From positions 1 to 64,000 of the forward strand of contig JANQPD010000003.1 of the NCBI GenBank assembly GCA_028285465.1: a stretch of DNA of 64,000 nt, written 5' to 3'. Made by a program: the position numbers and the translations under genes. Below are positions 3 through 15,579 of the stretch, in pieces. Under the pieces are notes generated by a model. It ran no database searches. It had not been told where the DNA came from and saw only the letters and a list, made by a program, of their open reading frames with translations. Source of the DNA: Owenweeksia sp. (lineage in GTDB: Bacteria > Bacteroidota > Bacteroidia > Flavobacteriales > Schleiferiaceae). Numbering within the stretch: position 1 is the first letter of the stretch; every line of letters begins with the position of its first letter.

Positions 3-3000
3 ACCGGTAGTAACCCTGCTGATTTTACCGACACCATTGTGCCTTTTGCTTCTTATAGTAATACTTCGTACCAGGAACAATTAGTAGATCTTTCATCTTA
101 CACAGGAGACGTGTTTATTGCCTGGCACGTACCTTCGGGTGGGTTAGATGGCTGGAGGCTGTATATCGACAGTGTTTCTGTCGAAGCCATTCCTGCTTGT
201 GTAGAACCCATGACCCTGCTCCTTACGTACAATAGTACAGACAGCGTTCAAATAGCCTGGGACTCTGTAACCAATGCCTATAATGTGGAATATGGCATAA
301 GCGGTTTTGCTCCTAATACAGGACAGGGAACAACCCTGGCGGTTACGGATACTTTTGCCAATATTAGCGGCCTTTCGGCCAATACAGCTTATGATTTTTA
401 TGTAACCTCCGATTGTTCCGGTGCCGGTGGCGGACTGAGTATACCGGGCGGGCCTCTTACTGTAAACACCCTTTGCAACGCATTGCCTGTTCCCTTTACA
501 GAAACTTTTAATAGTACCTCTTTATCCGAGGCCTGCTGGACCGTGCTCAATGCCAATGCCGATGGAGACCAGTGGAACCTCAACTATACTTCCAACACCT
601 TAAACGGAGATGAAGTAGCGGCTATCTATACCGACTTTAACGGTGGAAGCAATGATGATTGGCTGATCAGCCCTGCCTTATCGTTGACAGGAAATGAACA
701 ATTGGCCTATTACTACAGGGTACAGAGTTCCGGGGAACCAAACGATTTTGAAGTACTGGTTTCTACAACTGGTACCAACCCCGCTGATTTTACGGATACC
801 ATCGTGCCCCTTGCTTCTTACAGCAACATCACTTACCAGCGCGAAACAGTAAACATGGCCCTGTATTCAGGAGCTACCTATATTGCATGGCATATTCCTC
901 CCGGCGGCCTGGATGGATGGAGGCTTTATATAGATAGCGTGGTGGTAGAAACCCTGCCTCCCTGTCCTGACCCCAGCCAGCTCACGGCAAATAACATTAC
1001 CGCTTTCCAGGCAGATCTGGGTTGGACAAATCCCAATGCCACTTCCTGGAATGTTGAAGTGGTACCTGCAGGTTTCGGGCAAGGTTCCGGTACCACGGTG
1101 AACACCAGCAACAACCCGTATACGGCCACAAATCTTTCTCCAAACACCTGTTATGACTATTACGTACAGCAGGATTGCGGCAGCAATGGTACCAGCCAGT
1201 GGGTGGGTCCCTTTACCTTCTGTACACCCCCTACATGCCCTGCACCAACGAACCTGGGTGTTGATTTTGGTTCTTTAACATCTAACGGAACTGATATATT
1301 CTGGACCACCGGTGGTGCTTCCGACTGGAATGTACAGTATGACACGGCTGGTTTTTCTTTAGGAACTGGCACACAGACCTCTTCAACAAATGATACCCTA
1401 AGTCTGAGCAGCCTTACTCCGGGTACTGAATATGAGTTTTACGTACGGGATAGCTGCGGTGTAGGGGATGTATCTTCTTGGGCAGGCCCCTTTAGCTTCA
1501 GCACCCCTTGCCTTCCTTTCACTGCCCCTTATGCTCAAAACTTTGACGGAGCTGCGGCTCAAGATCCGTTCGGTGGTATTTCTTGCTGGACCATAACCGG
1601 CCCCGGTGCCAATGATATAGAACTCAACGACTCTCCTGATTTTGGTGTTGATCCAGCGCCAAGTTTACCTAATTCGGTGGAACTAAATGACGGTAACTTC
1701 AGCGGAGGGGACACCGCCATATTGGTAAGCCCCCGGTTTTCCGACCTCTCTTCCGGAAACAACCGTGTTCGTTTTAAAGCAGCCTTTGAAAACGTAGTCG
1801 AAGAGTTGTTTGTAGGAGTGATGAGTAATCCAAACATACCCTCCACAATGGTTATACTGGATACCATAACTACCTCAACGGCCGGGGTGTACAGGGAGTA
1901 TACGGTTAATCTTAACAATACCTCTGTTATTGGCACAGCGGAGCATGTGATTTTTGTGCATGGTACAGACATTTATGAAGTGTATATAGACGACTTCTTT
2001 TATGAAGCACTCCCAACGTGCCTGGCTCCTACAGCCCTCGGAGTAAAAAGTAGTATAACGACTACCTCTGCGGAGGTTTTCTGGACTACCGGAGGTGCCT
2101 CTAACTGGAACGTACAGTATGGCCCTATTGGCTTTTCTTTAGGAACCGGCACAAAAGTCCAATCTACAAATGATACCCTCCTTTTAAGCAATCTCGCTCC
2201 TGGCACCGAATATGAGTTTTACGTACGTGACAGTTGTAATGCTATGGACACCAGTTCCTGGGCTGGCCCGGTAAGCTTTATAACCGCTTTTAATACTAAT
2301 TACCTGGACGACTTCACACTCAGCTCTCCATTTGCCTGGAGTGAAGCAGATGGTAGGTTGAGTAATAATACGGTGTTTACTTCTTCCTCCAGCAGTTGGG
2401 GGCAGGATAACTTTGGGAACACAGGCTCTTCTTCTCAAAGAGTAAACCTTTTCACCGACAATCAGTTTGAATGGTTGATCTCCCCTTCTATCTACCTCGA
2501 TCCTTCCATATCAAATCTCCAGGTTGAATTTGATGTTTCCATAAGCGAATTCAACAGCGCCACCCAGGGCTATCTGGATGGAACGGATGATACATTGGCG
2601 TTGGTCATTTCTACGGATAATGGCGTGACATGGTCTTCCACTGACATTTTATGGTACACGGATGTCAATGATACCATTGATGTTACTGGCGAGCATGTGG
2701 TTATTCCGTTATCCGCGTATAGCGGTTATGTGAAGTTCGGGTTTTACGGAGGATCCGTAATAAATGACTCCCCGGATAACGACATATACGTAGACAACTT
2801 TGAAGTGCGTACACCCAGGGCCTGTAATACTCCTGTGTTGGACTCTGTTACTGCCGTTACCACTTCCAGTGCAACAGTACACTGGACAGATGGCGATGTC
2901 AATGCTTCTTCCTGGGATGTGATCCTGACGACATCAGGGCAAACACCGGGGCAGGGAGTGGTGACTACTCTGTCAAGCAGTGGCAGCTATAGTTTCAGCA

Positions 3001-4415
3001 ATCTTACAGATGCTACAGCTTATTGTATTTACCTGGTGGAAACCTGTCCTAATGGTATTTCGGATACTGCAGGGCCTTTATGTTTCAATACCTTGTGCCT
3101 GACCCAGGCCTTGCCCTATGTTGAGCGTTTCGATTTTTCGCTCAGGTGTTTTTCTGTTGTAGATAGCTCTGCAGACCCTGCTTCCTGGCAACATCTGCCG
3201 GCAGGTGGTTCTGCAAATGCCACGGGTGATCTGGATGGCACGGGTTATATGATCGTAGATAGCGATGAGGCAGGCAGTGTAGATATGGATGAGTATGCCT
3301 ATTCGCCCGTCATTGACGCGTCTGTAATCCCTACGGGAGAACAACTGTTTGTAGAATTCCACCAGTTTTTCAGGGTATATACTCTGGGTGGTTTCGAAAT
3401 TGGCGAAGTAGAAGTATGGGACGGCAACGCATGGAATTCTATCCTCTTGCAGGATCAATCGAGCGGTGACCAGGGAGCCTTTTCTGCTCCCGATACTGTC
3501 AAAATTGACATTACCCAGTATGCAAACGCAAGCCTTCAGGTACGTTTTCATTATTACGGTGCCAACTTCGATTGGTGGTGGGCAATTGACAATTTCAGTG
3601 TATACACCGAGGCACCAGGTTGTGCTGATCCGGGCCCTTTAACCTCTTCTACTCCCTTATGTGATGAGGTAACCTTTAATATAGCCTCCAATAGCAACAA
3701 CTCAATCATTGAGTTTGGCTCGGGAGGTTTTCCTGTGGGCACCGGAGCCGGAACAATCATTCCTGGCATTACGTCAACATCGCATACACTTGGAAACCTT
3801 CTTCCAGCCACAACGTACGATGCGTATATTGCGGATATCTGCGGATCTGATACCAGCAACTGGGTTGGACCTTTCACTTTTACCACAGATACCATTCCGG
3901 CAATCACCGCTGGTTTTAGTTTTGTACAAACCACCACTACGGCTAACAATGCTACGGTTGATTTTGATGCCAGCGCTTCGGTGGGCGCTACTTCTTATAC
4001 CTGGGATTTTGGCAATGGAAATGGGGGTATTGGTGTAAACGCTACTACTACCTATAGTGCCAACCAGGTGTACAATGTGAAGTTGATCGTAGAAGGACCT
4101 TGCGGAGCGATTGACAGCCTTACCCAGCCGGTAACCGTTACAGGCATAAGCCTGGAGGAAAACCGCTTTGATGCTACAGTTAGTTTGTATCCGAACCCCT
4201 CCAAGGGCATATTTTACCTGAATGTGGGCAATACCAGCAAGCTGTATAACGTGGAAATCACAGACCTGAGTGGCCGCGTGGTTTTCCGTGCCGCTGAACT
4301 CGAGCCCCGCATGGACCATATGATCCAATTGTCGGGTGAAGCAGCCGGTATGTATTTACTGAAAATTAAAGGAGAAGGTTTACGGATGAACCAACGGATC
4401 ATCCTCGATAAATAA
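3..4415 (+). CDS. Giant secreted adhesin, 3' part (cleaved-adhesin/FN3/PKD repeats, T9SS type A sorting domain)
   Basis: The frame is open to the window edge, so the gene starts upstream; the GTG at 39 in the ORF track is not a real start. The protein alternates jelly-roll modules of the cleaved-adhesin/choice-of-anchor J type (WLISPALSL, GGLDGWRLYIDS) with fibronectin type III modules (TEYEFYVRDSCG). Near the C-terminus is a PKD-like domain (YTWDFGNGNGG). The last ~80 residues are a T9SS type A sorting domain starting at SLYPNPSKGIFYLNV and ending in a basic tail. Proteins of this build are exported by the type IX system and anchored or released at the cell surface, usually for adhesion or polymer degradation. 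No catalytic domain is visible in this part. The first residues closely repeat a segment about 250 residues further on, so the array grew by internal duplication. A strong terminator follows. PorX, a T9SS regulator, lies near 44-45 kb. Confidence 0.93.
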   Translation, partial: TGSNPADFTDTIVPFASYSNTSYQEQLVDLSSYTGDVFIAWHVPSGGLDGWRLYIDSVSVEAIPACVEPMTLLLTYNSTDSVQIAWDSVTNAYNVEYGISGFAPNTGQGTTLAVTDTFANISGLSANTAYDFYVTSDCSGAGGGLSIPGGPLTVNTLCNALPVPFTETFNSTSLSEACWTVLNANADGDQWNLNYTSNTLNGDEVAAIYTDFNGGSNDDWLISPALSLTGNEQLAYYYRVQSSGEPNDFEVLVSTTGTNPADFTDTIVPLASYSNITYQRETVNMALYSGATYIAWHIPPGGLDGWRLYIDSVVVETLPPCPDPSQLTANNITAFQADLGWTNPNATSWNVEVVPAGFGQGSGTTVNTSNNPYTATNLSPNTCYDYYVQQDCGSNGTSQWVGPFTFCTPPTCPAPTNLGVDFGSLTSNGTDIFWTTGGASDWNVQYDTAGFSLGTGTQTSSTNDTLSLSSLTPGTEYEFYVRDSCGVGDVSSWAGPFSFSTPCLPFTAPYAQNFDGAAAQDPFGGISCWTITGPGANDIELNDSPDFGVDPAPSLPNSVELNDGNFSGGDTAILVSPRFSDLSSGNNRVRFKAAFENVVEELFVGVMSNPNIPSTMVILDTITTSTAGVYREYTVNLNNTSVIGTAEHVIFVHGTDIYEVYIDDFFYEALPTCLAPTALGVKSSITTTSAEVFWTTGGASNWNVQYGPIGFSLGTGTKVQSTNDTLLLSNLAPGTEYEFYVRDSCNAMDTSSWAGPVSFITAFNTNYLDDFTLSSPFAWSEADGRLSNNTVFTSSSSSWGQDNFGNTGSSSQRVNLFTDNQFEWLISPSIYLDPSISNLQVEFDVSISEFNSATQGYLDGTDDTLALVISTDNGVTWSSTDILWYTDVNDTIDVTGEHVVIPLSAYSGYVKFGFYGGSVINDSPDNDIYVDNFEVRTPRACNTPVLDSVTAVTTSSATVHWTDGDVNASSWDVILTTSGQTPGQGVVTTLSSSGSYSFSNLTDATAYCIYLVETCPNGISDTAGPLCFNTLCLTQALPYVERFDFSLRCFSVVDSSADPASWQHLPAGGSANATGDLDGTGYMIVDSDEAGSVDMDEYAYSPVIDASVIPTGEQLFVEFHQFFRVYTLGGFEIGEVEVWDGNAWNSILLQDQSSGDQGAFSAPDTVKIDITQYANASLQVRFHYYGANFDWWWAIDNFSVYTEAPGCADPGPLTSSTPLCDEVTFNIASNSNNSIIEFGSGGFPVGTGAGTIIPGITSTSHTLGNLLPATTYDAYIADICGSDTSNWVGPFTFTTDTIPAITAGFSFVQTTTTANNATVDFDASASVGATSYTWDFGNGNGGIGVNATTTYSANQVYNVKLIVEGPCGAIDSLTQPVTVTGISLEENRFDATVSLYPNPSKGIFYLNVGNTSKLYNVEITDLSGRVVFRAAELEPRMDHMIQLSGEAAGMYLLKIKGEGLRMNQRIILDK

Positions 4416-4435: not shown

Positions 4436-4467
4436 AAACCCCCAGGCCTTGCCTGGGGGTTTTTTTT
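4436..4467 (+). terminator. Intrinsic terminator of the giant adhesin gene
   Basis: A perfect 9-bp stem CCCCCAGGC / GCCTGGGGG with loop CTT is followed directly by eight T residues, 20 bases after the adhesin stop codon. It separates the adhesin from the sulfotransferase genes. Confidence 0.93.
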
Positions 4468-4564: not shown

Positions 4565-4572
4565 TACCTTTG
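4565..4572 (+). promoter_or_regulatory. Putative -7 box (TACCTTTG) before the first sulfotransferase
   Basis: TACCTTTG matches the Bacteroidota -7 consensus TAnnTTTG and lies 26 bases before the ATG of the sulfotransferase. No convincing -33 TTTG is present at the usual spacing, so the call rests on the -7 element and its position. Confidence 0.45.
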
Positions 4573-4598: not shown

Positions 4599-5651
4599 AT
4601 GGATCTTATTCAAAAAGCACAGCAGATTCCTATTGCATTTGTGGTAGGCAGAGGCAGGTCAGGCACTACCCTGTTGCAGAGCATTTTCGATGTTCACCCC
4701 CGGGTTTGTGCCCCGGCTGAATCCCGCTTTTTACTTTACCTGTACAGCAAATATGCACACGTTAAGCGCTGGAACGCAGAGCATGCACTGCATTTTGTGC
4801 AGGACCTGCTATCCGAACCTAAAATAAAGCTACTTTGGCATGTTAACCATGAAGCCCTGCTTCACGTACTCATGTCAAATCTTGATAAACTCGACTATGG
4901 CACCGTATGCAAACTGGTTTACCTCCACGATGCGTGCTGTGTTGAAAAAGGTAATGTGCAGCTTATTGTAGATAAGAACCCCGTATACTCCCTGTTCATT
5001 CCCCTATTGTTAAAAATTTTTCCCGAAGCAAAGTTCATCCACCTGGTCAGGGACCCCAGGGCAAATGTAGTCTCCCACAAGGGCATAGGGCTAAAATCAG
5101 GCGTCAAAGGGCTGGCGCTGAGTTGGCGTTTTTACAACCGACAAATAGAAAAAACCCGACCCGGGTCTTCGGGTCATTATCAATTGTTGCGTTATGAAGA
5201 CCTGGTAAATATGCCCGAAAAGCTCATCCGGCAGGCATCTGAGTTTTTAGACCTTCCTTACCTGGATGAAATGCAACACCCGCATAAATACGCACCTGCG
5301 CTCAGCGGGAAAAGCAAAAACAAGGTGAAAGAAAAAGCACTAAAAGGCATGCACCGTACGCTTATTGAACCTATTCACCCGGCCAGGATAAACAAATGGA
5401 AGTCCACTCTCAATGAAAAGCAAGTACGATGTGTAGAAGCTATTGCTCACTCCTATATGTTCAAATACCGGTATTCTTTTAGCTTCAAAACAAAGGTCCT
5501 TTTTTCTTGTGTATGCATTTGGGAAATGGCAGATCTGAAAAAAAGGATCTTACTCCTGAAATGTTATTACCTTATGCCTTTTTGGATAAGGAAAAAAAGA
5601 GCTGAAAGCTATGGCATAAAAAAGTTAAGAAAGCAGCTTTCGCTATCATGA
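4599..5651 (+). CDS. Sulfotransferase family protein (paralog 1 of 3)
   Basis: 350 residues, PAPS-dependent sulfotransferase of the Sulfotransfer_3 type. The 5'-phosphosulfate loop GRGRSGTTLLQ is at residues 17-27 and the 3'-phosphate motif RDPRANVVSH at 151-160. These enzymes move sulfate from PAPS to a hydroxyl or amine on a glycan, lipid or small molecule; the acceptor cannot be told from sequence. A basic, aromatic-rich tail of about 60 residues (PFWIRKKRAESYGIKKLRK) may bind the membrane. The gene starts about 130 bases after the adhesin terminator, and its stop overlaps the ATG of the next sulfotransferase (ATGA), so the two are translationally coupled. Confidence 0.88.
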   Translation: MDLIQKAQQIPIAFVVGRGRSGTTLLQSIFDVHPRVCAPAESRFLLYLYSKYAHVKRWNAEHALHFVQDLLSEPKIKLLWHVNHEALLHVLMSNLDKLDYGTVCKLVYLHDACCVEKGNVQLIVDKNPVYSLFIPLLLKIFPEAKFIHLVRDPRANVVSHKGIGLKSGVKGLALSWRFYNRQIEKTRPGSSGHYQLLRYEDLVNMPEKLIRQASEFLDLPYLDEMQHPHKYAPALSGKSKNKVKEKALKGMHRTLIEPIHPARINKWKSTLNEKQVRCVEAIAHSYMFKYRYSFSFKTKVLFSCVCIWEMADLKKRILLLKCYYLMPFWIRKKRAESYGIKKLRKQLSLS

Positions 5652-6721
5652 ATAACTTACCAGAAGTGTTTTCTCAACAAGACGTGCAGGAGCTTCCCTT
5701 TTTTTTCATAGTGGGCAGAGGAAGGTCTGGCACCACACTTTTGCAGATGATGCTGAATGCGCAGGGAAAAGTGACCATTCCCCTGGAGTCTAAATTTATC
5801 CTTCACCTGCAGGGTAAATATGAAGGCCGTTCCTTTACCAGCCCTTTGGAAATACGCCAGTTTTGCGAAGACCTCTATACCAACCGAAAGTTTAGGTTGT
5901 TTTGGAATGTTGAAAAGGAAGCGCTTATCACTTTTCTTAGTGGTCAGCTTCCCGTAAGGGGCTTTCCGGAAATCTGTAAGCTTATTTATGCCTACGCACC
6001 TACACCTTTTCCGTTTCACAACTTGTGCATGTTGGGGGATAAAAATCCTTTCTACTCCCTCTACATCCCTGCGCTGCTGCGTACATTTCCCGAAGCCAGG
6101 TTTGTGCATCTGATACGAGACGCCCGGGCTAATGTATGGTCTCACTACAAAGCTTTCGGCAAAAAAAACGCGGTTCATATGGCTTCACAGTGGAAATTGT
6201 ATAACCAAAGGGTAGAAGCCGCCAAACGAGAAAAACCAGACCGCTTTCACACCCTTAGGTACGAAGATCTTGTCAGCAATCCGGAAGAAACATTGCGTTC
6301 ACTTTGTACATTTCTCAACCTGGCTTACTCACCGGCTATGCTTGATTACCACCTCACTGCCGACAAATGGGCCAAAGAAAGCAGCTACCTCAATCTAAAG
6401 CATCATCTTGCCATTGGAAAAAAGGTAAGTCCGGCCAAAGCGGGAGGTTGGAAGGAGGGGTTGACCAGCTTTGAAGTAAGATGTATTGAGCATGTTGCTT
6501 ATGAAGAGCTGCTTCGGTATGGCTATCCGGTTGAAAAACAATCTTTAGCCAGCAGCGCCCTATTGTACTGGGCAATGGGGAAGATCAGGTTTCACATACA
6601 ACACCTGCTCATTCAAAAAGTCCTTTTCTCTATGCCTTTCTCACTCCGGAAGCACATCTTTAACGGACTTAGCCTCTTTTTTGATGCCCGGTATACAGGT
6701 TCAGGAACGGAACAGGCTTAA
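5648..6721 (+). CDS. Sulfotransferase family protein (paralog 2 of 3)
   Basis: 357 residues, clearly homologous to its neighbours: PAPS loop GRGRSGTTLLQMML near residues 23-36, conserved GDKNPFYSLYIPALL, and 3'-phosphate motif RDARANVWSH. It begins inside the stop codon of paralog 1 (ATGA overlap). Its 3' end overlaps the convergent hydroxylase-like gene by 21 bases. The C-terminal region is again hydrophobic and basic (MPFSLRKHIFNGLSLFF). Acceptor unknown; the adjoining acyl/glycosyl operon suggests a surface glycolipid or polysaccharide. Confidence 0.88.
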   Translation: MNNLPEVFSQQDVQELPFFFIVGRGRSGTTLLQMMLNAQGKVTIPLESKFILHLQGKYEGRSFTSPLEIRQFCEDLYTNRKFRLFWNVEKEALITFLSGQLPVRGFPEICKLIYAYAPTPFPFHNLCMLGDKNPFYSLYIPALLRTFPEARFVHLIRDARANVWSHYKAFGKKNAVHMASQWKLYNQRVEAAKREKPDRFHTLRYEDLVSNPEETLRSLCTFLNLAYSPAMLDYHLTADKWAKESSYLNLKHHLAIGKKVSPAKAGGWKEGLTSFEVRCIEHVAYEELLRYGYPVEKQSLASSALLYWAMGKIRFHIQHLLIQKVLFSMPFSLRKHIFNGLSLFFDARYTGSGTEQA

Positions 6722-7453
6722 CAAATAAACGGCTACATAAGCCACTATAAATACCGGGGCCAGGATAACTTTAGAAAGCATTCCCTTGCCCGCAAAAGCA
6801 CCGGCTACCTTCTGCGAAACCAGGGCCGCCAATACGGTGGCACACACCCTGCGTTTCTTTCTTATATACTCGGGTCTGATCACATCAAAAAGCAACACGA
6901 TTCTTCGTTTATCTGTGTGGTTCCAGGCACGGTGCTTTGAAGAATCGTTAAACAACAGCAATTCTCGCTCTTTCCAGGCACGCTGCTCCCCATCACACTC
7001 GAAACCGCATAAAGGTAAGCCTGCCGGAATAAGCAGTCCCAAATGCCCGCGTATGATCGCATTTGTATCGCCTCTGTGTTTTTTTATGTCTACCCCAGGT
7101 TCCAACATACTCACCGAATAAGAAACGATCCCCGGGATGCTTTCCATGACTTTTTGTGTAAGCGGGCACTCTTTTACATTCTCTTTGATCGGCCAACCCC
7201 ATATTTTAAAAGACAGCGCCCGCCAGTTTTTCTTGCCCTCCACCAGGGTCTTGTTGAAATACGGTTTAAGTTTATCCGGGTGTTCCTCTAAAAAAGAGGC
7301 AATTTCCTCTTGTATGGCACGGCTATTTTTTTTTACGCCCTCTGTCCAGGTGTGTTCTCCGGCATTTACATAGCCTATTTCCTTTGGAGGGCTCCCCCCG
7401 AAAGCAGAAAACCAAAGTTTCTCGGCATTTTTGTTCATGCCGGTAATGTACAA
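6701..7453 (-). CDS. Aspartyl/asparaginyl beta-hydroxylase-like dioxygenase
   Basis: 250 residues resembling the Asp_Arg_Hydrox (AspH/LpxO-like) Fe(II)/2-oxoglutarate dioxygenases. The likely iron-binding and co-substrate segments are KKHRGDTNAIIRGHLGLLIP and NDSSKHRAWNHTDKRRIVLL, spaced as in the family. A hydrophobic C-terminal stretch (VILAPVFIVAYVAVYLLSLF) probably anchors it to the membrane, as in LpxO, which hydroxylates lipid A acyl chains; other members hydroxylate Asp/Asn side chains. It sits on the minus strand between plus-strand sulfotransferases 2 and 3, so it is transcribed separately. Hydroxylation of a lipid or acyl group here is an inference from context. Confidence 0.75.
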   Translation of the reverse strand: MYITGMNKNAEKLWFSAFGGSPPKEIGYVNAGEHTWTEGVKKNSRAIQEEIASFLEEHPDKLKPYFNKTLVEGKKNWRALSFKIWGWPIKENVKECPLTQKVMESIPGIVSYSVSMLEPGVDIKKHRGDTNAIIRGHLGLLIPAGLPLCGFECDGEQRAWKERELLLFNDSSKHRAWNHTDKRRIVLLFDVIRPEYIRKKRRVCATVLAALVSQKVAGAFAGKGMLSKVILAPVFIVAYVAVYLLSLFRS

Positions 7454-7497
7454 AATGGTAGGATTTTGGTTAATCTTCTATCTTCACCGGTGAATAA

Positions 7498-8550
7498 ATG
7501 AATGGCATCGACAACACTTCATTGTTTTTTATCATCGGCAGGGAACGCTCCGGTACTACCCTTTTACAGTCTTTTTTAGCAGCCCATCCTGAAGTAAGTA
7601 TTCCTACGGAGGCCCCCTTTATTCCGTACCTGTATCGAAAATACCATGCGGATGCAAAGTGGAAGCAAGGCTTACCCCCCGACTTTATACCTGACCTGCT
7701 TACACATCCTTACTTTGTTTATTGGCGGATAAAGCCCGATGCTTTAAAAGAAGAGCTAAACAAATTAGAGGAATTGAATTTTGCCATAGCCTGTAAAAGT
7801 GTGCTCCTTCATCAAAACAAACAGGCCCGGCATGTGGGTGACAAAAACCCGCAATACACGCTGTATTTAAAAGAACTCATAAAACTTTACCCTGAGGCAA
7901 AATTTGTTTGGATTACCCGTGACCCCAGGGCCCAGGTTTATTCCATGCTTAAGGTGTCCTTTGAAAGAAAGATAGTGAGTGCTCTCGCCTACCGATGGCA
8001 ACAATACAATAAAAAGGCAGCAGCTTTTTCACATGCCCACCCCGCTAAAATGCTATGGATCAAATATGAAGACCTGGTAGCTGAACCCGTAGAAACCTTA
8101 CAGCGCACATGTACCTTCCTCGGGGTAGATTACCAGGAGTATATGCTAACGCAGCGCACCTCAACCCTTGAGGATCAACCGTTTTTTAAAACCCCGCAAC
8201 ACCTATCCTTAAACAAAGCACTTTCGTTGTCTCCGCTCAAGGCGTGGAAAGAACACCTCAACCGTAGTCAAATAGAATTGATCGAGGCCATTTGCCAACC
8301 GGTAATGGAAACATTGGGTTATGCGCCAGGTCACAGGCAATCTTCTTTTAACCGCCTTTCGCATAAGGCAGCGCATTTCCCGGGGATCCTGTATGGACAC
8401 TTTTACTTCGGTTTCATTAAGGGCCTGCAAGCCCTGCCCTTTTCGCTCAAACTCTTTCTACTTAAGAAATTGATTTATCCAAGGTTTACATTTTGGATAA
8501 ACGCAGCCCATGATGCAAAGAATAAAAAAGCGCATAAAGAGGGGAGCTAG
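7498..8550 (+). CDS. Sulfotransferase family protein (paralog 3 of 3)
   Basis: 350 residues. PAPS loop GRERSGTTLLQSF at about residues 14-26, conserved GDKNPQYTLYLKELI, and 3'-phosphate motif TRDPRAQVYSM. It has the same architecture as the two sulfotransferases upstream, including a C-terminal tail (ALPFSLKLFLLKKLIYPRF), so the three arose by duplication. It diverges from the hydroxylase-like gene (44-base gap) and converges with the GNAT gene of the acyl operon (24-base gap, no clear terminator). Acceptor unknown. Confidence 0.87.
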   Translation: MNGIDNTSLFFIIGRERSGTTLLQSFLAAHPEVSIPTEAPFIPYLYRKYHADAKWKQGLPPDFIPDLLTHPYFVYWRIKPDALKEELNKLEELNFAIACKSVLLHQNKQARHVGDKNPQYTLYLKELIKLYPEAKFVWITRDPRAQVYSMLKVSFERKIVSALAYRWQQYNKKAAAFSHAHPAKMLWIKYEDLVAEPVETLQRTCTFLGVDYQEYMLTQRTSTLEDQPFFKTPQHLSLNKALSLSPLKAWKEHLNRSQIELIEAICQPVMETLGYAPGHRQSSFNRLSHKAAHFPGILYGHFYFGFIKGLQALPFSLKLFLLKKLIYPRFTFWINAAHDAKNKKAHKEGS

Positions 8551-8574
8551 ACACTGGTTTTCCCACTACTCCCA

Positions 8575-9213
8575 CTAAAAGATCTCCAGAAAGGCTTTGG
8601 GGTCTTTCTCTGCCAAGGCATACCAATGTTTGGCCGAATCAGGTAGTTCAATATCGCTGGGTGCTAGTATTTTATCGTCTCCCGTTAGTATACCCATCGC
8701 CTTCCTGATCTTCTTCGTTTTTTCGAAGTATTGCGCTGCATTGAGCTCCATAACCACTTTATGTGCCCCAGGCAATCGCTCGCTTATCTCATAGCCTAAC
8801 ATTTGGTTGTATTGGATCACCCTGGTATTGTCGTCTCTTACGGTTGCTACGGTAGCCTTCAGCTTCAGAATGGAAAAAGTGAGGTCAGCCATACAAAGGG
8901 ATACTGCCACGGGCAGGTGCGTTTCCATTGCCTTTTTATCCCAAAGAAAGATCCCACCCTCAGCTTTCTCCTCATCCTTGGAACAGATCCGTCCATGCAC
9001 CAAGCCCACCTTCTCTTCTTTATGTTTAATGATGAAGTAAAAATTCCGGTTGTTGTTTATGGAATGGAACCAATCCAATTGCTCTTGTTTTGAAATGATC
9101 TTCTGAAAAAACATCTTTGAGCGGATATACTTGCTGTTCCGGTGCTTTCGCACTAGTTCAATATCCCCGAGTTTCAGACGATGCAGTTCAATGCCATACT
9201 TCCGGATGATCAT
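8575..9213 (-). CDS. GNAT family N-acetyltransferase
   Basis: 212 residues with the GNAT fold signature: an acceptor-side N-terminus, a central acyl-donor strand (KEEKVGLVHGRI) and the late motif KATVATVRDDNTRVIQYNQM followed by LGYEI. It most resembles GNATs of surface-sugar pathways that acylate amino sugars. It is the last gene of a six-gene minus-strand operon; its ATG overlaps the GT2 stop by 4 bases. With a dedicated ACP and two KASIII genes in the same operon, an acyl-ACP donor is plausible, but acetyl-CoA use cannot be excluded. The last ~45 residues are a separate C-terminal extension. Confidence 0.75.
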   Translation of the reverse strand: MIIRKYGIELHRLKLGDIELVRKHRNSKYIRSKMFFQKIISKQEQLDWFHSINNNRNFYFIIKHKEEKVGLVHGRICSKDEEKAEGGIFLWDKKAMETHLPVAVSLCMADLTFSILKLKATVATVRDDNTRVIQYNQMLGYEISERLPGAHKVVMELNAAQYFEKTKKIRKAMGILTGDDKILAPSDIELPDSAKHWYALAEKDPKAFLEIF

Positions 9214-10124
9214 AACCTGGATTCTGATATCGAATAGGTAGGCTTCTGGTTGAGAATGCCGAAAATATTACTCAAATACTGGCCCACCACGGCCAGGCTG
9301 ATAAGAATAAGGCTGGTCGAAAACATAATGGCCACGATCAAAGCGGTGAAGCCCGCTACATTCACATCGAAGAAAAGCTTTCTTACAGCAAAGTAAAGGG
9401 CTAAAACAAATGCGAGCGCAGACAGGCTACCCCCGAGAAATACCAAAAGCCGGAGAGGTACGGTGCTGTAGGTAAAAGAGAGTTGAAGCACCAGGCTAAT
9501 TATCTTAAAGCGCGAGTACCCACTTTTCCCATGTGCCCTCGGGCTGGTTTGTACAGCAACAAAACCGATCTTCTGTGTATACCAAAACAATATCTCATCT
9601 AAAAAAACAACCGGTTGTACATGACTTACCAGTTTCTTCTTTAACGCCTGGTTTAAGAGCCTCATCGAAGATCCTCTTCCTATGCCTTGATTAAGTGTCT
9701 TTGCCCCTAACTGCCACAGCTGTCCCCCGATTTTTTTAGCGGCATTCGTGTGCCGTGCGCCTTCTCCGTATACCAAGTCTGCCTTGCTCTTCTTCATCTC
9801 GCTTAGCAGTAGAGGAAGGTCTTCCGGGCTGTATTGCAGGTCATCGTCTATGGTAAATACATAGTCTCCCGAAGCGTGTTTAATGCCGCATAAAGTGGCA
9901 TTGTGTTGTCCGTAATTCTTAGCGAGGCGGATCAGCTTCACCGAACCGGGCGTATTTTCTTTTAGCTGCAACAACACCTCCCAGCTGTTGTCCTTCGAAA
10001 AATCATCCACATACAGGATCTCAAAAGGTTTTTCCAAAGCCCGGAAAGTTTCCAAAAGCTTAGTGTTGAGCGCAGCTAAACTCGCGCTGCTTTCGTAAAC
10101 CGGTATTACAATTGAATATTCCAT
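9210..10124 (-). CDS. Glycosyltransferase family 2, polyprenyl-phosphate type (DPM1/ArnC-like)
   Basis: 304 residues. The N-terminal GT-A domain starts SIVIPVYESSASLAALN and carries the metal-binding motif TIDDDLQYSPEDL near residue 95. Two C-terminal membrane spans follow (LRLLVFLGGSLSALAFVLAL; FTALIVAIMFSTSLILISLA). This layout is that of enzymes making polyprenyl-phosphate sugars such as ArnC or dolichyl-phosphate mannose synthase. The charged sugar would serve as donor on the periplasmic side, for example for GT-C enzymes like the TMTC-like pair at 13.6-17.4 kb. The gene overlaps both neighbours in the operon. Confidence 0.88.
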   Translation of the reverse strand: MEYSIVIPVYESSASLAALNTKLLETFRALEKPFEILYVDDFSKDNSWEVLLQLKENTPGSVKLIRLAKNYGQHNATLCGIKHASGDYVFTIDDDLQYSPEDLPLLLSEMKKSKADLVYGEGARHTNAAKKIGGQLWQLGAKTLNQGIGRGSSMRLLNQALKKKLVSHVQPVVFLDEILFWYTQKIGFVAVQTSPRAHGKSGYSRFKIISLVLQLSFTYSTVPLRLLVFLGGSLSALAFVLALYFAVRKLFFDVNVAGFTALIVAIMFSTSLILISLAVVGQYLSNIFGILNQKPTYSISESRL

Positions 10125-10870
10125 CAGTGTCCGGCACTTAGACCGCCATCCATAATAAGTTCGGTACCGGTTATCCAGCGGGAAGCGTCTGACAACAAAA
10201 ACACAATGGCATGGGCAATGTCTTCCGGCTCTCCAAAACCCAGCGGGTACATGTCTCCGTGTTTGTCCATCATTTCCTTTGAAACCGCTTGTTCAGCCCG
10301 GTCAAAAAGTGGGGTTTTCACCATGGCTGCCGCGATCACGTTTGACCGTATTTTCTTTTCCGCATACTCCAGGGCCAAGGCTTTACTGTAAGCATTTAAT
10401 GCGGCCTTGCTCCCGGCATATAAGGCACCTCCTTTATGCGCAAAAAAACTGGAAATAGAAGACATAAATACAACAGCTCCTCCATTGTTTATCTTTTTTG
10501 CTTTTAGCAAAAAGCTATTGAGCTTTATAGGGCCTTTGTAATTAAGGGCAAAAAGTTGCTCGATCTGTTTTTCTCCGATAAACTTTACCGGGAAAGCTTT
10601 GACCATGCCGGCACTATGTACCAATCCATCCAAAGCGGGGAGCTGCTCTACCAGATGGCGCAATTGATCCTCCTTTGTAACATCGGCCTGTATGATGCGA
10701 TGTTCTTCCCCGGATAAGGTGTCCTTTACATCTGCTAACTTCTGCTCACTCCTGGCACTGAGCACCAGTGTAGCGCCCATGTCAGCACAAAGGCGTGCCG
10801 TACAGGCACCGATGCCCGAAGAGGCCCCTGTAATCAAAATGGTTTTGCCTTGTAAGGTAAACGGATTCAT
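10124..10870 (-). CDS. SDR family oxidoreductase (FabG-like ketoreductase)
   Basis: 248 residues. Rossmann motif GASSGIG at 15-21, catalytic Ser in VVFMSSISSF, catalytic YAGSK (Tyr151, Lys155), and the C-terminal TGTELIMDGGLSAGH typical of classical SDRs. Its overlap with the KASIII gene upstream (ATGA) and its place after the ACP suggest that it reduces the 3-ketoacyl-ACP made by the KASIII enzymes to 3-hydroxyacyl-ACP. A nucleotide-sugar or other keto substrate is possible. Confidence 0.85.
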   Translation of the reverse strand: MNPFTLQGKTILITGASSGIGACTARLCADMGATLVLSARSEQKLADVKDTLSGEEHRIIQADVTKEDQLRHLVEQLPALDGLVHSAGMVKAFPVKFIGEKQIEQLFALNYKGPIKLNSFLLKAKKINNGGAVVFMSSISSFFAHKGGALYAGSKAALNAYSKALALEYAEKKIRSNVIAAAMVKTPLFDRAEQAVSKEMMDKHGDMYPLGFGEPEDIAHAIVFLLSDASRWITGTELIMDGGLSAGH

Positions 10871-11922
10871 ATCTCAAGTACTTCGGTGCATACTACTTTA
10901 TTGGTGCTGAGAGACATCACCCCCCATGACAAACCCACACCAAAACCCGAAAGTAATGCATGGCATTTTTTCGTACTTAATGCTTCTTTCAATTCTGTAA
11001 GCATGGTAAGCGGGATGGATGCAGAACTGGTATTGCCATAATCCCGTATAGAGTAAGGCACCTGTTCGGGTGAGAATTTCATTTTTTTCCGGATGGTCTC
11101 GTTCATCAGGAGATTGGCCTGGTGCATAAGCAAGTAGTCAAAATCTGCAGGGGTAAAGCCATGTTTATCCAAGAATGCCTGCATGCTTTTAGGTACTTTT
11201 CCTACCGAAAAGCTAAACACATCCAATCCGTTCAAGGCTACGTGTAGCCGACTCCGGCTAATGCCTTTGTCCAGTTCCCTTATGCGGAAAGACTCTTCCG
11301 ACACCAGATTCCTTATGCCTCCGTCAGGGATCATAATGGCTTCGTACCCGCTGCCATCACTATTGAGTTGAAAATGCATGGGTGGGGCTGTGGGTGTGTA
11401 TTCCAGGGCACATACACAACCCGCATCGCCAAATAAAGGATAGGTGCTTTTATCGGTTGATGCACAGGTGGCTGAGGAAACGTCTCCTACCATGAGTAAG
11501 CCCTTTTTCAGTTGTCCGCTTTGCATGAGGCTACTGATCACCGATAAACCATATACAAAGCCCGAACAGCCCAACCCAATGTCAAAAGTTATACACCCTT
11601 CGCTCAGCTTCAGGCGGTCTTGCAAAATGGTAGAAGTAGAAGGTAAATAATAGTCCCTTGATTGTGAAAGAAAGATCAATACTTCTACTTCTTCCTTTTC
11701 CCATTGGAGTTTGTTGAGGAGTGCTTCGGTTGCTTCAAAGCATAGGTCGGAAGTAGTAAGCCCTTTGGGAGCCACCCGCCTGGTTTCTACACCTGTAGTT
11801 TTAATAAACAGTTTTTTTTCTGCTTCCGAAAAATGCGGCAAGTCCCAATTCGACTCTGCTTGTTTGGGTACAGCCCCTGAAAGGCCAGCTACGTTTACGT
11901 GATGTGTGGAGAGCCATGCCAT
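10867..11922 (-). CDS. 3-oxoacyl-ACP synthase III family protein (KASIII copy A)
   Basis: 351 residues of the FabH/KASIII thiolase fold. Catalytic Cys119 lies in DIGLGCSGFVYGL, the active-site His in LMHQANLLMN, and the Asn in IRDYGNTSSASIPL; the triad is intact. Such enzymes condense an acyl-CoA with malonyl-ACP or transfer acyl groups. The ATG follows immediately after the stop codon of the ACP gene, so the partner is probably that ACP. It differs widely from KASIII copy B in the same operon, so the two may use different starters or form a pair. Housekeeping FabH is expected elsewhere in the genome. Confidence 0.88.
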   Translation of the reverse strand: MAWLSTHHVNVAGLSGAVPKQAESNWDLPHFSEAEKKLFIKTTGVETRRVAPKGLTTSDLCFEATEALLNKLQWEKEEVEVLIFLSQSRDYYLPSTSTILQDRLKLSEGCITFDIGLGCSGFVYGLSVISSLMQSGQLKKGLLMVGDVSSATCASTDKSTYPLFGDAGCVCALEYTPTAPPMHFQLNSDGSGYEAIMIPDGGIRNLVSEESFRIRELDKGISRSRLHVALNGLDVFSFSVGKVPKSMQAFLDKHGFTPADFDYLLMHQANLLMNETIRKKMKFSPEQVPYSIRDYGNTSSASIPLTMLTELKEALSTKKCHALLSGFGVGLSWGVMSLSTNKVVCTEVLEI

Positions 11923-12162
11923 TTACGATGCCTTTCTGCGTGCCTCTACAATGTGAAAAAGATCCTGAACGGTTTCAATCTGGTTTAAATCTTCTCCGGT
12001 AATCGCCACTTCGTATTCCGTTTCCATCAGGGCAATCAGGATCAGGGCGTACATAGAGCTCCACTCTTCAAGATCGCGGAAACTCGTTGTGGGTTCCAGG
12101 GTCCCTTTTTCAAGTTCCTCGAACTCCTCTTCTAATTTGTGTATAAAACTTTTTATCTCCAT
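11923..12162 (-). CDS. Acyl carrier protein, dedicated to the operon
   Basis: 79 residues, acidic helical ACP. The phosphopantetheine site usually reads DSL; here it reads WSSM (Ser36 as the probable attachment residue), preceded by FRDLEEW. Divergent ACPs of this sort occur in surface-glycan and secondary-metabolite loci rather than in the fab operon. It lies between two KASIII genes, with gaps of 3 and 0 bases. Replacement of the motif's Asp by Ser may tune which phosphopantetheinyl transferase or partner recognises it. Confidence 0.83.
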   Translation of the reverse strand: MEIKSFIHKLEEEFEELEKGTLEPTTSFRDLEEWSSMYALILIALMETEYEVAITGEDLNQIETVQDLFHIVEARRKAS

Positions 12163-12165
12163 AGT

Positions 12166-13209
12166 TTACTTAAAATACAGCATACAAGCTCCCCAAGATA
12201 ACCCAATTCCGAAACCCGCCAGCAATACTTTATTTCCTTTACTTATTCTCTGAGCCTGGTAAGCTCTGTACAAAGCGATCGGGATAGAAGAAGATACCGT
12301 ATTGCCCACATCGGTTATGTCAATGCAAAACTTTTCTTCCTTTACCTTGAGCCGCTTGCGCAAAAAGTTAAGCATTTGCCCGTTGGCCTGATGAGGCACA
12401 AAAAAATCTACTTCTTCTTTCTCAAGCCCTTCCTTTTCTAAAATATCCTCTACTAGCTGAGGCACCGTTCGCAAAGCAAATAAAAATATCTGAGGTGCAT
12501 TCATGCGCAACCTTCCCCCCAATAAGCCAGGATAGATGTGCTTGAATTGAAACAGCCACTCTGCATCCGCAGGATTCCGGGTACCGGAACGTTCTACCTT
12601 TAGTATATGTTCTCCTTTTCCGTCCGTACCAAAAACAGCCCCTCCAATGGAAGCGTTGATCCCTGACGGGATCTTTTTATCGCTGATCAGGGTAGCCGCT
12701 GCGCCATCACTGAATATGGCCCGGATATTCCAATCACTCGGATGGATGACTTTGGTGGGGGTATCTGATGTTATGAGCAGCACCTTTCGTGCCTGCCCCC
12801 CCATAATGAGCAATTTGGCCAGGTTAAGCCCATAGATGTAGCCGGTACATCCATGAAGCACGTCAATGGCGCCTATACTCTTTCTCAACCCCAGGTCGGC
12901 CTGCATCACACAGGCAGTGGTTGGGCCTTTGTATTCCAGCGCATCAGAAACAAAGATCAGGTAATCAATTTCCTCGCGGGCAATGTCCCATTCTTCAAAG
13001 AGCTTCAAGGCGGCCCTGTTTCCCAGGTCTTTTGAGCTATCGCTATGCGCTGAAACATACCTTTGCTTGATCCAGCAATAGTTATACACATCTTCTATCG
13101 ATGGACCATCAGGATCATCTTTCTCCTTAAAATGCAGATAATCTTCTATGATGGAGGCATTGCCGAGTTTTTCTTCCGGCAGGTAGTAACTGATCGCGTT
13201 TATATACAC
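12166..13209 (-). CDS. 3-oxoacyl-ACP synthase III family protein (KASIII copy B)
   Basis: 347 residues. The triad is present: Cys121 in DVLHGCTGYIYGLN, His in FVPHQANGQML, Asn in DVGNTVSSSIPIAL. It is the first gene of the minus-strand operon KASIII-ACP-KASIII-SDR-GT2-GNAT. Its N-terminal third contains an unusual insertion (FKEKDDPDGPSIEDVYNYCW) compared with housekeeping FabH, in the region that shapes the acyl pocket and dimer face, which suggests a specialised starter unit. The ATG at 13209 has no good promoter match upstream; the region upstream holds a decayed repeat fragment. Confidence 0.87.
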   Translation of the reverse strand: MYINAISYYLPEEKLGNASIIEDYLHFKEKDDPDGPSIEDVYNYCWIKQRYVSAHSDSSKDLGNRAALKLFEEWDIAREEIDYLIFVSDALEYKGPTTACVMQADLGLRKSIGAIDVLHGCTGYIYGLNLAKLLIMGGQARKVLLITSDTPTKVIHPSDWNIRAIFSDGAAATLISDKKIPSGINASIGGAVFGTDGKGEHILKVERSGTRNPADAEWLFQFKHIYPGLLGGRLRMNAPQIFLFALRTVPQLVEDILEKEGLEKEEVDFFVPHQANGQMLNFLRKRLKVKEEKFCIDITDVGNTVSSSIPIALYRAYQAQRISKGNKVLLAGFGIGLSWGACMLYFK

Positions 13210-13428: not shown

Positions 13429-13584
13429 CTAACCTCCCTTAAGCAGCTGAGTTTCTCCAGCTTCTATTCCATACCGGGTAGTCGTACAACCATTGCCATC
13501 CGTAACGGTTAATGTATACCCTCTCAATGGCATGGTTATCGGCATATATCCATCATCCTAAGAACAATTGTAAGGTGGTTTACC
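13429..13584 (-). pseudogene. Decayed SprB-like adhesin repeat fragment
   Basis: On the minus strand one frame reads GKPPYNCS, a TAG, then DDGYMPITMPLRGYTLTVTD and GNGCTT. This follows the SprB-repeat pattern (PPYtYsW-sdG...GtYtvtVTDanGCt) seen in large T9SS gliding adhesins. The TAG sits where the repeat normally has Trp (TGG to TAG), and a TAA interrupts the frame just upstream. No other repeat units or start codon were found, so this is a relic. The rest of the 405-base gap 13210-13614 holds only short open frames that I cannot identify. Confidence 0.55.
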
Positions 13585-13614: not shown

Positions 13615-15573
13615 TTAATTCGCCTTTGATCGGAGTTGGTCTAAATACGCTTCGGAAACCTGGGCGCCTTCTTGCTTTGCGCGCATAGCACTTTCCAAAG
13701 CACCTTTATAATCTCCAATACTATTCTTTACTACAGCTAAATTCAACCAGGTACCTGATGCATGACTATTGAGTTGCAAAGCTTGCGTGTAGGCTTTAAC
13801 GGAGCGGTCCAGTTCCCGGGTCTGGTAATAGACACTTCCAAGGTTATTAAATGCATCAAAGTAGCCAGGGTCAAGGTTAATGGCCTTTTCCAGATCGCGT
13901 TTGGCAGATTCAAGGTCAGAATTTAGCTGCGCTGTTCCCCGGTTGTACCAGGCCCTTGCATAATTGGGGTTCAATTCAATGGCTTTGTTAAAGTCTGATA
14001 TTGCTTCCTCTTGATTACCGGTTAGCAAGTATAAGTTACCCCGGTTGTTATAGGCCAGGTAAGAATCCGGATTGAGGGCAATTGCCGTATTAAAATCGCC
14101 CAATGCCTTTGCTCCATCATTTGCAGAAACGTAAAATTGCCCCCTGTTGATATAAGCTTGTTCATAATCTGGCCGCAACTGAATAGCCTTTGAATAGCTT
14201 TCTATGGCTTGCCGGGTATATCCTAACTGATGCTGTAAATCTCCCAGGTTAAAGTAATTGTCAAAACGATCAGGTGCCAACTGCACGGCCTTGTTAAAAT
14301 CAGCCAGGGCTTTAGAATTGTTGGAAACATCTTTGTAATAATTCCCCCGCCCTATATAGGCAAACCAATCCTGCGGATATTCTGAAATGGCCTTACTCCA
14401 TAGTGTTTCGCTATTCTGCCAAACCTTTAATTGTTGGCTTGAGAGATAAAAAAGGGGAAGCCCGATACTGATGCTTATCAGATAAAAAGTAGATTTCTTT
14501 TTAGGTATCTGAGGGACACGTTCAATCAAAACGATCAATGCCAAAAATAATCCTATATAACACAGGTAAGAATACCGTTCAGCAACTATGGCTCTTCCTA
14601 CGCTCACCAGCTGTAGCATCAATATCAGATTGAGCAAAAAGAACAATCCCGCAAACCCCAAAATCCTGTTCTTTCTCATCCCCAGCCATCCAAGGATCAA
14701 TAAGAATATCGCGCCTACTGCTGCCGGCATCAGAAAGCCCCATTCCAACATTTCAGTTTCCTGAGGGTAGGGATGCATAGGTGACAGGCCTGTGGGTAAA
14801 ATGCTCTTGACTATGTAGAAAAACAAACCGTAAAAGGCAAAGCTCAAACGTTGCGTTACTGAATAGGTTTCCAGGTCATTAACTGCAGCATTGCTTTGCA
14901 ATTGGATAGTAAGCATACCAATAAGCAAACTGCCTATAAACAATGGTATTAAAGGGAGGGCACTTTTGATTTTGATCTTCCCGAATGCTAAGTAATGCAA
15001 CAAAACCAAAGCTACCGGAAGGGTAATAGCTGCAGGCTTAGACAGAAGGGAAATTACCGCTGCACCAAATGTGAGCAATAGATGTTTTTTCTGTTTGGTT
15101 TTTAGATATTCGAAATATGCGATCAATGCACCCAGATAGAAAAAGGTATACACTAAATCCTTCCGGCTGGATATCCAGGCTACAGACTCTATGTGCATGG
15201 GGTGAATAGCAAAAAGAAGTGCTGCAAAAAAAGCTGCTCCCATTTTATTTGGAAGTATTCTTCTGGCAAAAAAGAAAACCAAAATGGAATTCAAAAGATG
15301 CCAAACAACATTATTAATGTGAAATATGCCAGGTGAGCCCCCTCCTAACCAATAATCTAACCTAAGGCTTAGCATAGTTAGCGGGTGAAAATTACCTGTA
15401 CCTGATCCATCTAAAAGAGAAGCAATAGTTGGATGGAGAATAAACGCGTTGTTCAGGACATATAGCTGATCGTCAAAGTTGACAAAGTCAAAATGGAAAG
15501 AAGGCCAATAGAGCCCCAGGGTAAGTACAGCCAGGCCCAACAACTCTAGGTAAGTCCTCTTATTCACATTCAT
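13615..15573 (-). CDS. TMTC-like multi-span TPR membrane protein (putative GT-C glycosyltransferase), copy B
   Basis: 652 residues from the ATG at 15573; the ORF track begins two codons earlier at TTG. The N-terminal ~400 residues hold about ten membrane spans with GT-C features: an acidic loop motif (FVNFDDQLYVLNN) after span 1, then NFHPLTMLSLRLDYWLGG and HPMHIESVAWISSRKD. These resemble TMTC-type O-mannosyltransferases and PMT-like enzymes using polyprenyl-linked sugars. About seven TPR units (residues ~415-645, e.g. NRGNLYLLTGNQEEAISDFN) face the periplasm and probably bind acceptor proteins. It directly follows its paralog with no gap, so the two are cotranscribed. Activity is inferred from architecture. 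Confidence 0.75.
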   Translation of the reverse strand: MNVNKRTYLELLGLAVLTLGLYWPSFHFDFVNFDDQLYVLNNAFILHPTIASLLDGSGTGNFHPLTMLSLRLDYWLGGGSPGIFHINNVVWHLLNSILVFFFARRILPNKMGAAFFAALLFAIHPMHIESVAWISSRKDLVYTFFYLGALIAYFEYLKTKQKKHLLLTFGAAVISLLSKPAAITLPVALVLLHYLAFGKIKIKSALPLIPLFIGSLLIGMLTIQLQSNAAVNDLETYSVTQRLSFAFYGLFFYIVKSILPTGLSPMHPYPQETEMLEWGFLMPAAVGAIFLLILGWLGMRKNRILGFAGLFFLLNLILMLQLVSVGRAIVAERYSYLCYIGLFLALIVLIERVPQIPKKKSTFYLISISIGLPLFYLSSQQLKVWQNSETLWSKAISEYPQDWFAYIGRGNYYKDVSNNSKALADFNKAVQLAPDRFDNYFNLGDLQHQLGYTRQAIESYSKAIQLRPDYEQAYINRGQFYVSANDGAKALGDFNTAIALNPDSYLAYNNRGNLYLLTGNQEEAISDFNKAIELNPNYARAWYNRGTAQLNSDLESAKRDLEKAINLDPGYFDAFNNLGSVYYQTRELDRSVKAYTQALQLNSHASGTWLNLAVVKNSIGDYKGALESAMRAKQEGAQVSEAYLDQLRSKAN

Positions 15574-15579
15574 GATCAA

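Follow-up and report, generated by a model that had tools for sequence, protein, structure and literature searches.

A gene island at positions 4599–13209 of the 64,000-nucleotide stretch of DNA analysed here (the window) probably builds a surface sugar that carries a short hydroxylated acid and sulfate. Contig C37 (64,317 bases), of which the window covers almost the whole length, belongs to a 3.84-Mb, 99.97% complete genome of a Flavobacteriales-type Bacteroidota. Taken as a whole, the proposal that we favour by a small measure is that of an accessory sugar-tailoring island, in which a hydroxyacyl amino sugar is made on polyprenyl phosphate, hydroxylated and sulfated. An earlier note had described in this region three sulfotransferases (ST1 to ST3), an AspH-type oxygenase and a six-gene KASIII-ACP-KASIII-SDR-GT2-GNAT operon. 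All ten ORFs were found at or very near the positions given there, and the families, by Pfam or Foldseek, agree with that description; catalytic residues are intact in both KASIII, AspH and the sulfotransferases. Few bacterial surface glycans that bear sulfate have, to our knowledge, been matched with the enzymes that make them. The conserved combination of cytosolic sulfotransferases with a hydroxyacyl-sugar pathway provides a testable gene set for finding such a molecule, and may help to show which substrates Sulfotransfer_3 and AspH-type enzymes of bacteria act on.

The forward-strand part of the island is preceded by a terminator-like hairpin with a T run (4439–4467, + strand), read from the sequence and located between a T9SS gene and ST1. 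Downstream of the hairpin, a TAnnTTTG-type promoter element (TACCTTTG, 4565–4572, + strand) precedes ST1 (4599–5651, +), a PAPS-dependent sulfotransferase of the Sulfotransfer_3 family (Pfam, 92.5 bits) that overlaps ST2 (5648–6721, +; 119 bits) by 4 nt. ST2 is convergent, with a 21-nt overlap, with the gene for a 2-oxoglutarate/Fe(II) hydroxylase of the AspH/LpxO/OlsC type (6701–7453, −; PF05118, 131 bits), and this gene is divergent from ST3 (7498–8550, +; 129 bits), 44 nt lying between them. The operon is encoded on the minus strand. Its first gene is KASIII-1 (12166–13209), followed by a dedicated ACP with a WSSM serine attachment site (11923–12162; Pfam PP-binding), KASIII-2 (10867–11922), both KASIII being beta-ketoacyl-ACP synthases III, an SDR of the 3-oxoacyl-ACP reductase type (10124–10870; 173 bits), a GT2 predicted to be a polyisoprenyl-phosphate glycosyltransferase of the GtrB/ArnC type (9210–10124) and a PseH/FdhC-like GNAT, a candidate N-acyltransferase (8575–9213). 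Junctions between the six genes measure −4, −1, −4, 0 and +3 nt; ST1–ST3 and AspH are outside this transcription unit, in units of their own. Pfam scores exceed the cut-offs widely for the sulfotransferases (92–129 vs. 27), AspH (131 vs. 22.6), GT2 (102 vs. 23), the SDR and both KASIII. For the ACP the margin is narrow (23 vs. 20.8), and the GNAT, the weakest family assignment by sequence, falls slightly short (24.5 vs. 25.4). Neither an aminotransferase nor a nucleotide-sugar gene is present within the cluster, six clear DegT homologues being encoded elsewhere in the genome, and no flippase gene was identified. Recent transfer was rejected as judged by base composition, as the GC content of the cluster (0.45–0.47) does not fall outside the values of the flanking DNA. 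Sulfonolipid and flexirubin pathways were also considered and discarded, the enzymes expected for either being absent from the cluster.

The acyl genes have the make-up of a hydroxyacyl cassette: KASIII, ACP, KASIII and a ketoacyl reductase are contiguous, in an order shared with L111, L112, L115, L128 and further loci, and the Cys-His-Asn triad is conserved in both condensing enzymes (Cys119-His267-Asn297 in KASIII-2). KASIII-2 shows 62% identity to its Aequorivita viscosa orthologue, and KASIII-1 55% identity in both A. viscosa and MAG SJ571; the solved structure nearest to KASIII-1 is 3gwa. The attachment serine of the ACP is conserved in seven orthologues. Genes for a dehydratase or an enoyl reductase are absent from the cluster. 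In type II fatty acid chemistry, a KASIII, an SDR and an ACP working without these two enzymes yield a short chain with its hydroxyls left, and because both are absent here the chain would be expected to retain them. In four MAG loci with related genes (L133, L134, L135 and L136), three conserved genes encoding small proteins (107, 142, and 86 aa) are located downstream of the SDR gene; the 107-aa protein has no Pfam match.

For the GNAT, whose scores are below all curated cut-offs (NCBIfam PseH, 48 bits vs. 93), the fold was borne out by an AlphaFold (AF2) model with a mean pLDDT of 87.9 and by Foldseek. FdhC gave the highest query TM-score among the 50 matches listed (0.69) and PseH 0.67, some polyamine GNATs scoring nearly as well; sequence identity to FdhC and PseH is 16–19%. 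FdhC moves 3-hydroxybutanoyl onto Fuc3N. From this fold similarity and by analogy, the window GNAT is a putative N-acyltransferase; its donor is expected to be ACP-bound, whereas that of FdhC is CoA-bound. The GT2 aligns over its full length (residues 2–301) with GtrB (Synechocystis sll0501; 5ekp, 125 bits) and also matches ArnC (115 bits) in PDB profiles. It combines a full-length GT-A domain with C-terminal membrane helices, as the GtrB/ArnC type does, which suggests that it transfers a sugar to polyprenyl phosphate. The scores are nevertheless only about 115–125 bits, and the cluster is devoid of ArnA, ArnB, ArnT and a GtrA partner.

The three sulfotransferases contain the 5′-PSB motif GRxRSGTTLL (GRGRSGTTLL in ST1) and the 3′-PB motif RDxRA (RDPRANVVS in ST1), and with their Pfam scores they belong to Sulfotransfer_3. 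In profile searches against PDB, they match the protein-tyrosine sulfotransferases (TPST, 94 bits) and the CurM ST (90 bits), within a range of 87–94 bits. They differ from both in being stand-alone, cytosolic proteins of a separate clade. Against the NoeE Nod-factor sulfotransferase equivalog they reach 23–43 bits, below its cut-off of 500. As no transmembrane segment is predicted in any of them and an APS kinase is encoded in the genome, sulfation would take place in the cytosol. When ten cluster STs (from the family of the window genome, Flavobacteriaceae and a Chitinophaga-labelled MAG) were compared with 28 other STs from relatives, the ten were placed on one side of a single branch (92/81; 94% of bootstrap trees). 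The genome has eight Pfam ST matches, and five of them are located outside the window, in G000:C17, G000:C24, and G000:C19.

The AspH protein combines its PF05118 score with intact catalytic residues (His126/His174/Arg184); the two histidine iron ligands and the arginine that binds 2-oxoglutarate are invariant in nine cluster AspHs. The human ASPH profile matches it at about 90 bits. AspH is rare, being found in 3 of 119 relatives (the window genome counted, in a set that includes no genome from the window's own genus) and in 17 of 396 genomes of the phylum, and in each of the three AspH-bearing relatives cluster partners are encoded alongside it. It adjoins cluster genes in seven loci, and seven cluster AspHs form one clade (98/94). 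The AspH of relative G017 falls outside this clade, forcing all of them together giving a p-AU of 0.09. In the phylum sample, none of twelve AspH loci away from the cluster has STs nearby, and a distant KASIII is nearby in one of the twelve. Considering the ST and AspH trees together, the STs and most of the AspHs are lineage-specific partners of the cluster rather than chance neighbours. Rieske oxygenase genes are found inside six related KASIII-ACP-SDR cassettes (L120, at 2004–3080, L121, L141, L167, L168, and L169), none of which contains AspH, so that they offer another oxygenase in its place. We take this as a hint, short of proof, that in such cassettes it is the acyl chain that the oxygenases modify.

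The earlier note had named separate occurrence of the sulfotransferases and the operon in relatives as evidence against a common pathway. A KASIII-2 scan of 84,980 genomes yielded 54 loci, and the gene set does recur, so that this check did not count against the proposal. The full KASIII-ACP-KASIII-SDR-GT2-GNAT order is found in A. viscosa (L111), a cultured host of the cassette in which two STs converge on the operon, in MAG SJ571 (L115) with one ST neighbour, and in two further MAGs, L112, where AspH is present, and L128, which has three AspH genes. A Chitinophaga-labelled MAG (L134) has the acyl genes together with three STs and AspH. Flavobacterium limi, a relative from the same order as the window genome, and F. 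fluviatile have a shorter variant operon with AspH and a DegT aminotransferase, arranged in F. limi as ACP-KASIII-SDR-GT2-GNAT with the other two genes alongside. In G017, AspH stands beside a sulfotransferase, a TMTC-like gene and the start of a GT2, inside which the contig ends. A DegT aminotransferase adjoins the clusters in L111, L126, and L162. Among the 53 acyl loci with enough flank, which are not independent of each other, ST, AspH or TMTC partners accompany 5 of 8 with a GtrB-type GT2 vs. 3 of 45 without it (p about 0.001). The latter group includes two Flavobacterium loci, placed there because their GT2 is short, and 16 loci from the phylum sample, in none of which such neighbours were found. 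Acyl cassettes without an ST are common; as some clusters lack STs and some lack AspH, neither is essential. Since the set is conserved in other genomes, its grouping is not due to chance, and its recurrence in distant relatives makes it look like a real pathway. Gene order and phylogeny thus support the view, already put forward in the earlier note, that the operon goes together with the STs and AspH.

That note had also regarded this as a candidate for an undescribed system. This does not hold for the acyl/ACP part. In Flavobacterium psychrophilum, wfpCDEF, among the R-group genes of the O-polysaccharide, was proposed to make 3,5-dihydroxyhexanoyl-ACP for the amino sugar Qui2NAc4N; the 3,5-dihydroxyhexanoyl group was seen on Qui2NAc4N by NMR, and wfpCDEF belongs to the locus for this sugar (PMC6519341). 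As in wfpC-D-E-F-G, the window cassette unites ketoacyl synthases, an ACP, a ketoacyl reductase and an acyltransferase. The wfp acyltransferase is, however, a PglD homologue encoded, alongside sugar genes, within an O-antigen locus (PMC6519341), whereas the window cluster, outside an O-antigen locus, has a GNAT acyltransferase, a GtrB-type GT2, STs and AspH. Pseudomonas syringae vioS, vioR, acp and vioB, encoding a KASIII, a reductase, an ACP and an N-acyltransferase, lead to N-(3-hydroxy-1-oxobutyl) viosamine, which is lost in a vioR mutant (PMC3927599). The window shares KASIII, reductase, ACP and a candidate N-acyltransferase with this island, which differs in having one KASIII and a methyltransferase in place of STs and AspH, and flagellin as acceptor (PMC3927599). 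In the window cluster we found neither an acyltransferase of the PglD/VioB type, the candidate being the GNAT of PseH/FdhC-like fold, nor nucleotide amino-sugar genes beside the cassette as in wfp and vio. In the literature searched, we found no description of an acyl cassette accompanied by STs as well as AspH and a GtrB-type GT2. As far as that literature goes, the acyl core is already known and the dedicated STs, AspH and GtrB-type GT2 are new.

Each of the families is compatible with a role in making an acylated, hydroxylated and sulfated sugar, as suggested previously, and the cell can produce PAPS, an APS kinase being encoded. We infer the order of steps, together with chain length, sugar, site of sulfation, flipping, acceptor and product, as follows. 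KASIII-1, KASIII-2 and the SDR would assemble a short chain on the dedicated ACP, namely 3-hydroxybutyryl, or 3,5-dihydroxyhexanoyl if two rounds take place. With this chain, the GNAT would acylate a nucleotide amino sugar at its amino group, and the GT2 would move the sugar onto polyprenyl phosphate. AspH may introduce one more hydroxyl, for which the acyl chain is the likeliest site, and ST1–ST3 would add sulfate from PAPS, the acylation, GT2, AspH and ST steps all being predicted at the cytosolic side. The finished sugar would then be flipped, and a periplasmic GT-C enzyme would attach it to a glycan or a protein of the cell surface. A more specific version, that the product is a surface sugar of an undescribed type, namely an N-hydroxyacyl amino sugar with an acyl chain further oxidised by AspH and with sulfate esters, assembled on polyprenyl phosphate by a Bacteroidota-wide accessory cassette, is put forward tentatively, as possible but doubtful.

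Three other explanations were weighed. The STs and AspH may have a different target, for example a protein or an exopolysaccharide, and share with the acyl-sugar operon nothing but a genomic island. Their separate transcription units, their absence from some clusters and the relatedness of the STs to protein-tyrosine sulfotransferases are in line with this, but the adjacency is repeated across families, the cluster-specific ST and AspH clades are not what it predicts, and STs without a membrane segment are contrary to an extracytoplasmic substrate; we consider it unlikely. Slightly less probable still is that the STs act, like CurM, on the 3-hydroxyacyl-ACP that the adjacent operon would deliver, or that the target is a lipid. 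CurM-like action, the least probable of all, would give a small acyl product that is sulfated or modified by elimination, and the CurM ST match almost equals that of the protein-tyrosine sulfotransferases; no CurM-like thioesterase was seen beside the STs, however, the frequency of ST-less cassettes argues against it, and the substrate cannot be deduced from family similarity by itself.

Lipid tailoring, an improbable reading that ranks between these two, supposes that an LpxO/OlsC-like oxygenase hydroxylates a fatty acyl chain on lipid A or on an aminolipid, that the operon makes a special chain and that the STs sulfate a head group. Lipid A acyl chains are ACP-borne, the C-terminus of AspH has hydrophobic stretches, and its top curated models (NCBIfam) are OlsC and LpxO. 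Yet these scores, 98 bits for OlsC and 68 for LpxO, are far under the 450 and 500 bits set as equivalog cut-offs, the cluster has neither OlsB nor an LpxA/LpxL-like acyltransferase, the GNAT resembles amino-sugar acyltransferases, the GT2 is of the GtrB/ArnC type, and long saturated chains are not made by KASIII and SDR without a dehydratase. As the acyl part matches wfpCDEF (PMC6519341) and vioS/vioR/acp (PMC3927599), a short N-linked hydroxyacyl group on an amino sugar is likelier than a lipid, which the earlier note had allowed for, or an LPS fatty acid.

Returning to the proposed sugar-tailoring island, its operon side adjoins tandem TMTC-like GT-C proteins (PMT_2 plus TPR, 13615–17421), which looked like candidates for the transferases of the pathway. 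G017 retains this pair at 80–87% identity with no cluster beside it, and DNA similarity between the window and G017 ends at the TPR1 stop codon (window 13614), so that the pair was rejected as an island member in the window. The 405-nt gap between pair and operon contains a SprB-like repeat remnant (GYTLTVTDGNGCTTT, 13432–13536, minus strand) with broken frames, 57% identical in translation to a gene (L182:2824–2928) on the G017 contig bearing the TMTC pair. This remnant is the edge mark of the island. In view of the G017 pair, the end of similarity and the remnant, the cluster is most plausibly an accessory insert next to a resident TMTC-like pair.

Large T9SS proteins adjoin many clusters. 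A T9SS cargo as acceptor was considered and rejected, proximity being uninformative: type A sorting tails are matched 148 times in the genome, roughly once every 26 kb, and the terminator-like hairpin separates the T9SS gene from ST1. The window TMTC-like pair carries DD and ERxxY motifs, familiar from human TMTCs. TMTC-like genes also adjoin the clusters in L111, L115, L126, L128, L162, and L076, where they belong to a subgroup other than the window pair. The counterpart of that subgroup in the window genome is encoded on G000:C32 (L187:5849–7717), between lpx genes and a waaA-like gene; it shows 45% identity to the TMTC-like protein of the L115 cluster, and its position points to a possible link of the subgroup with LPS.
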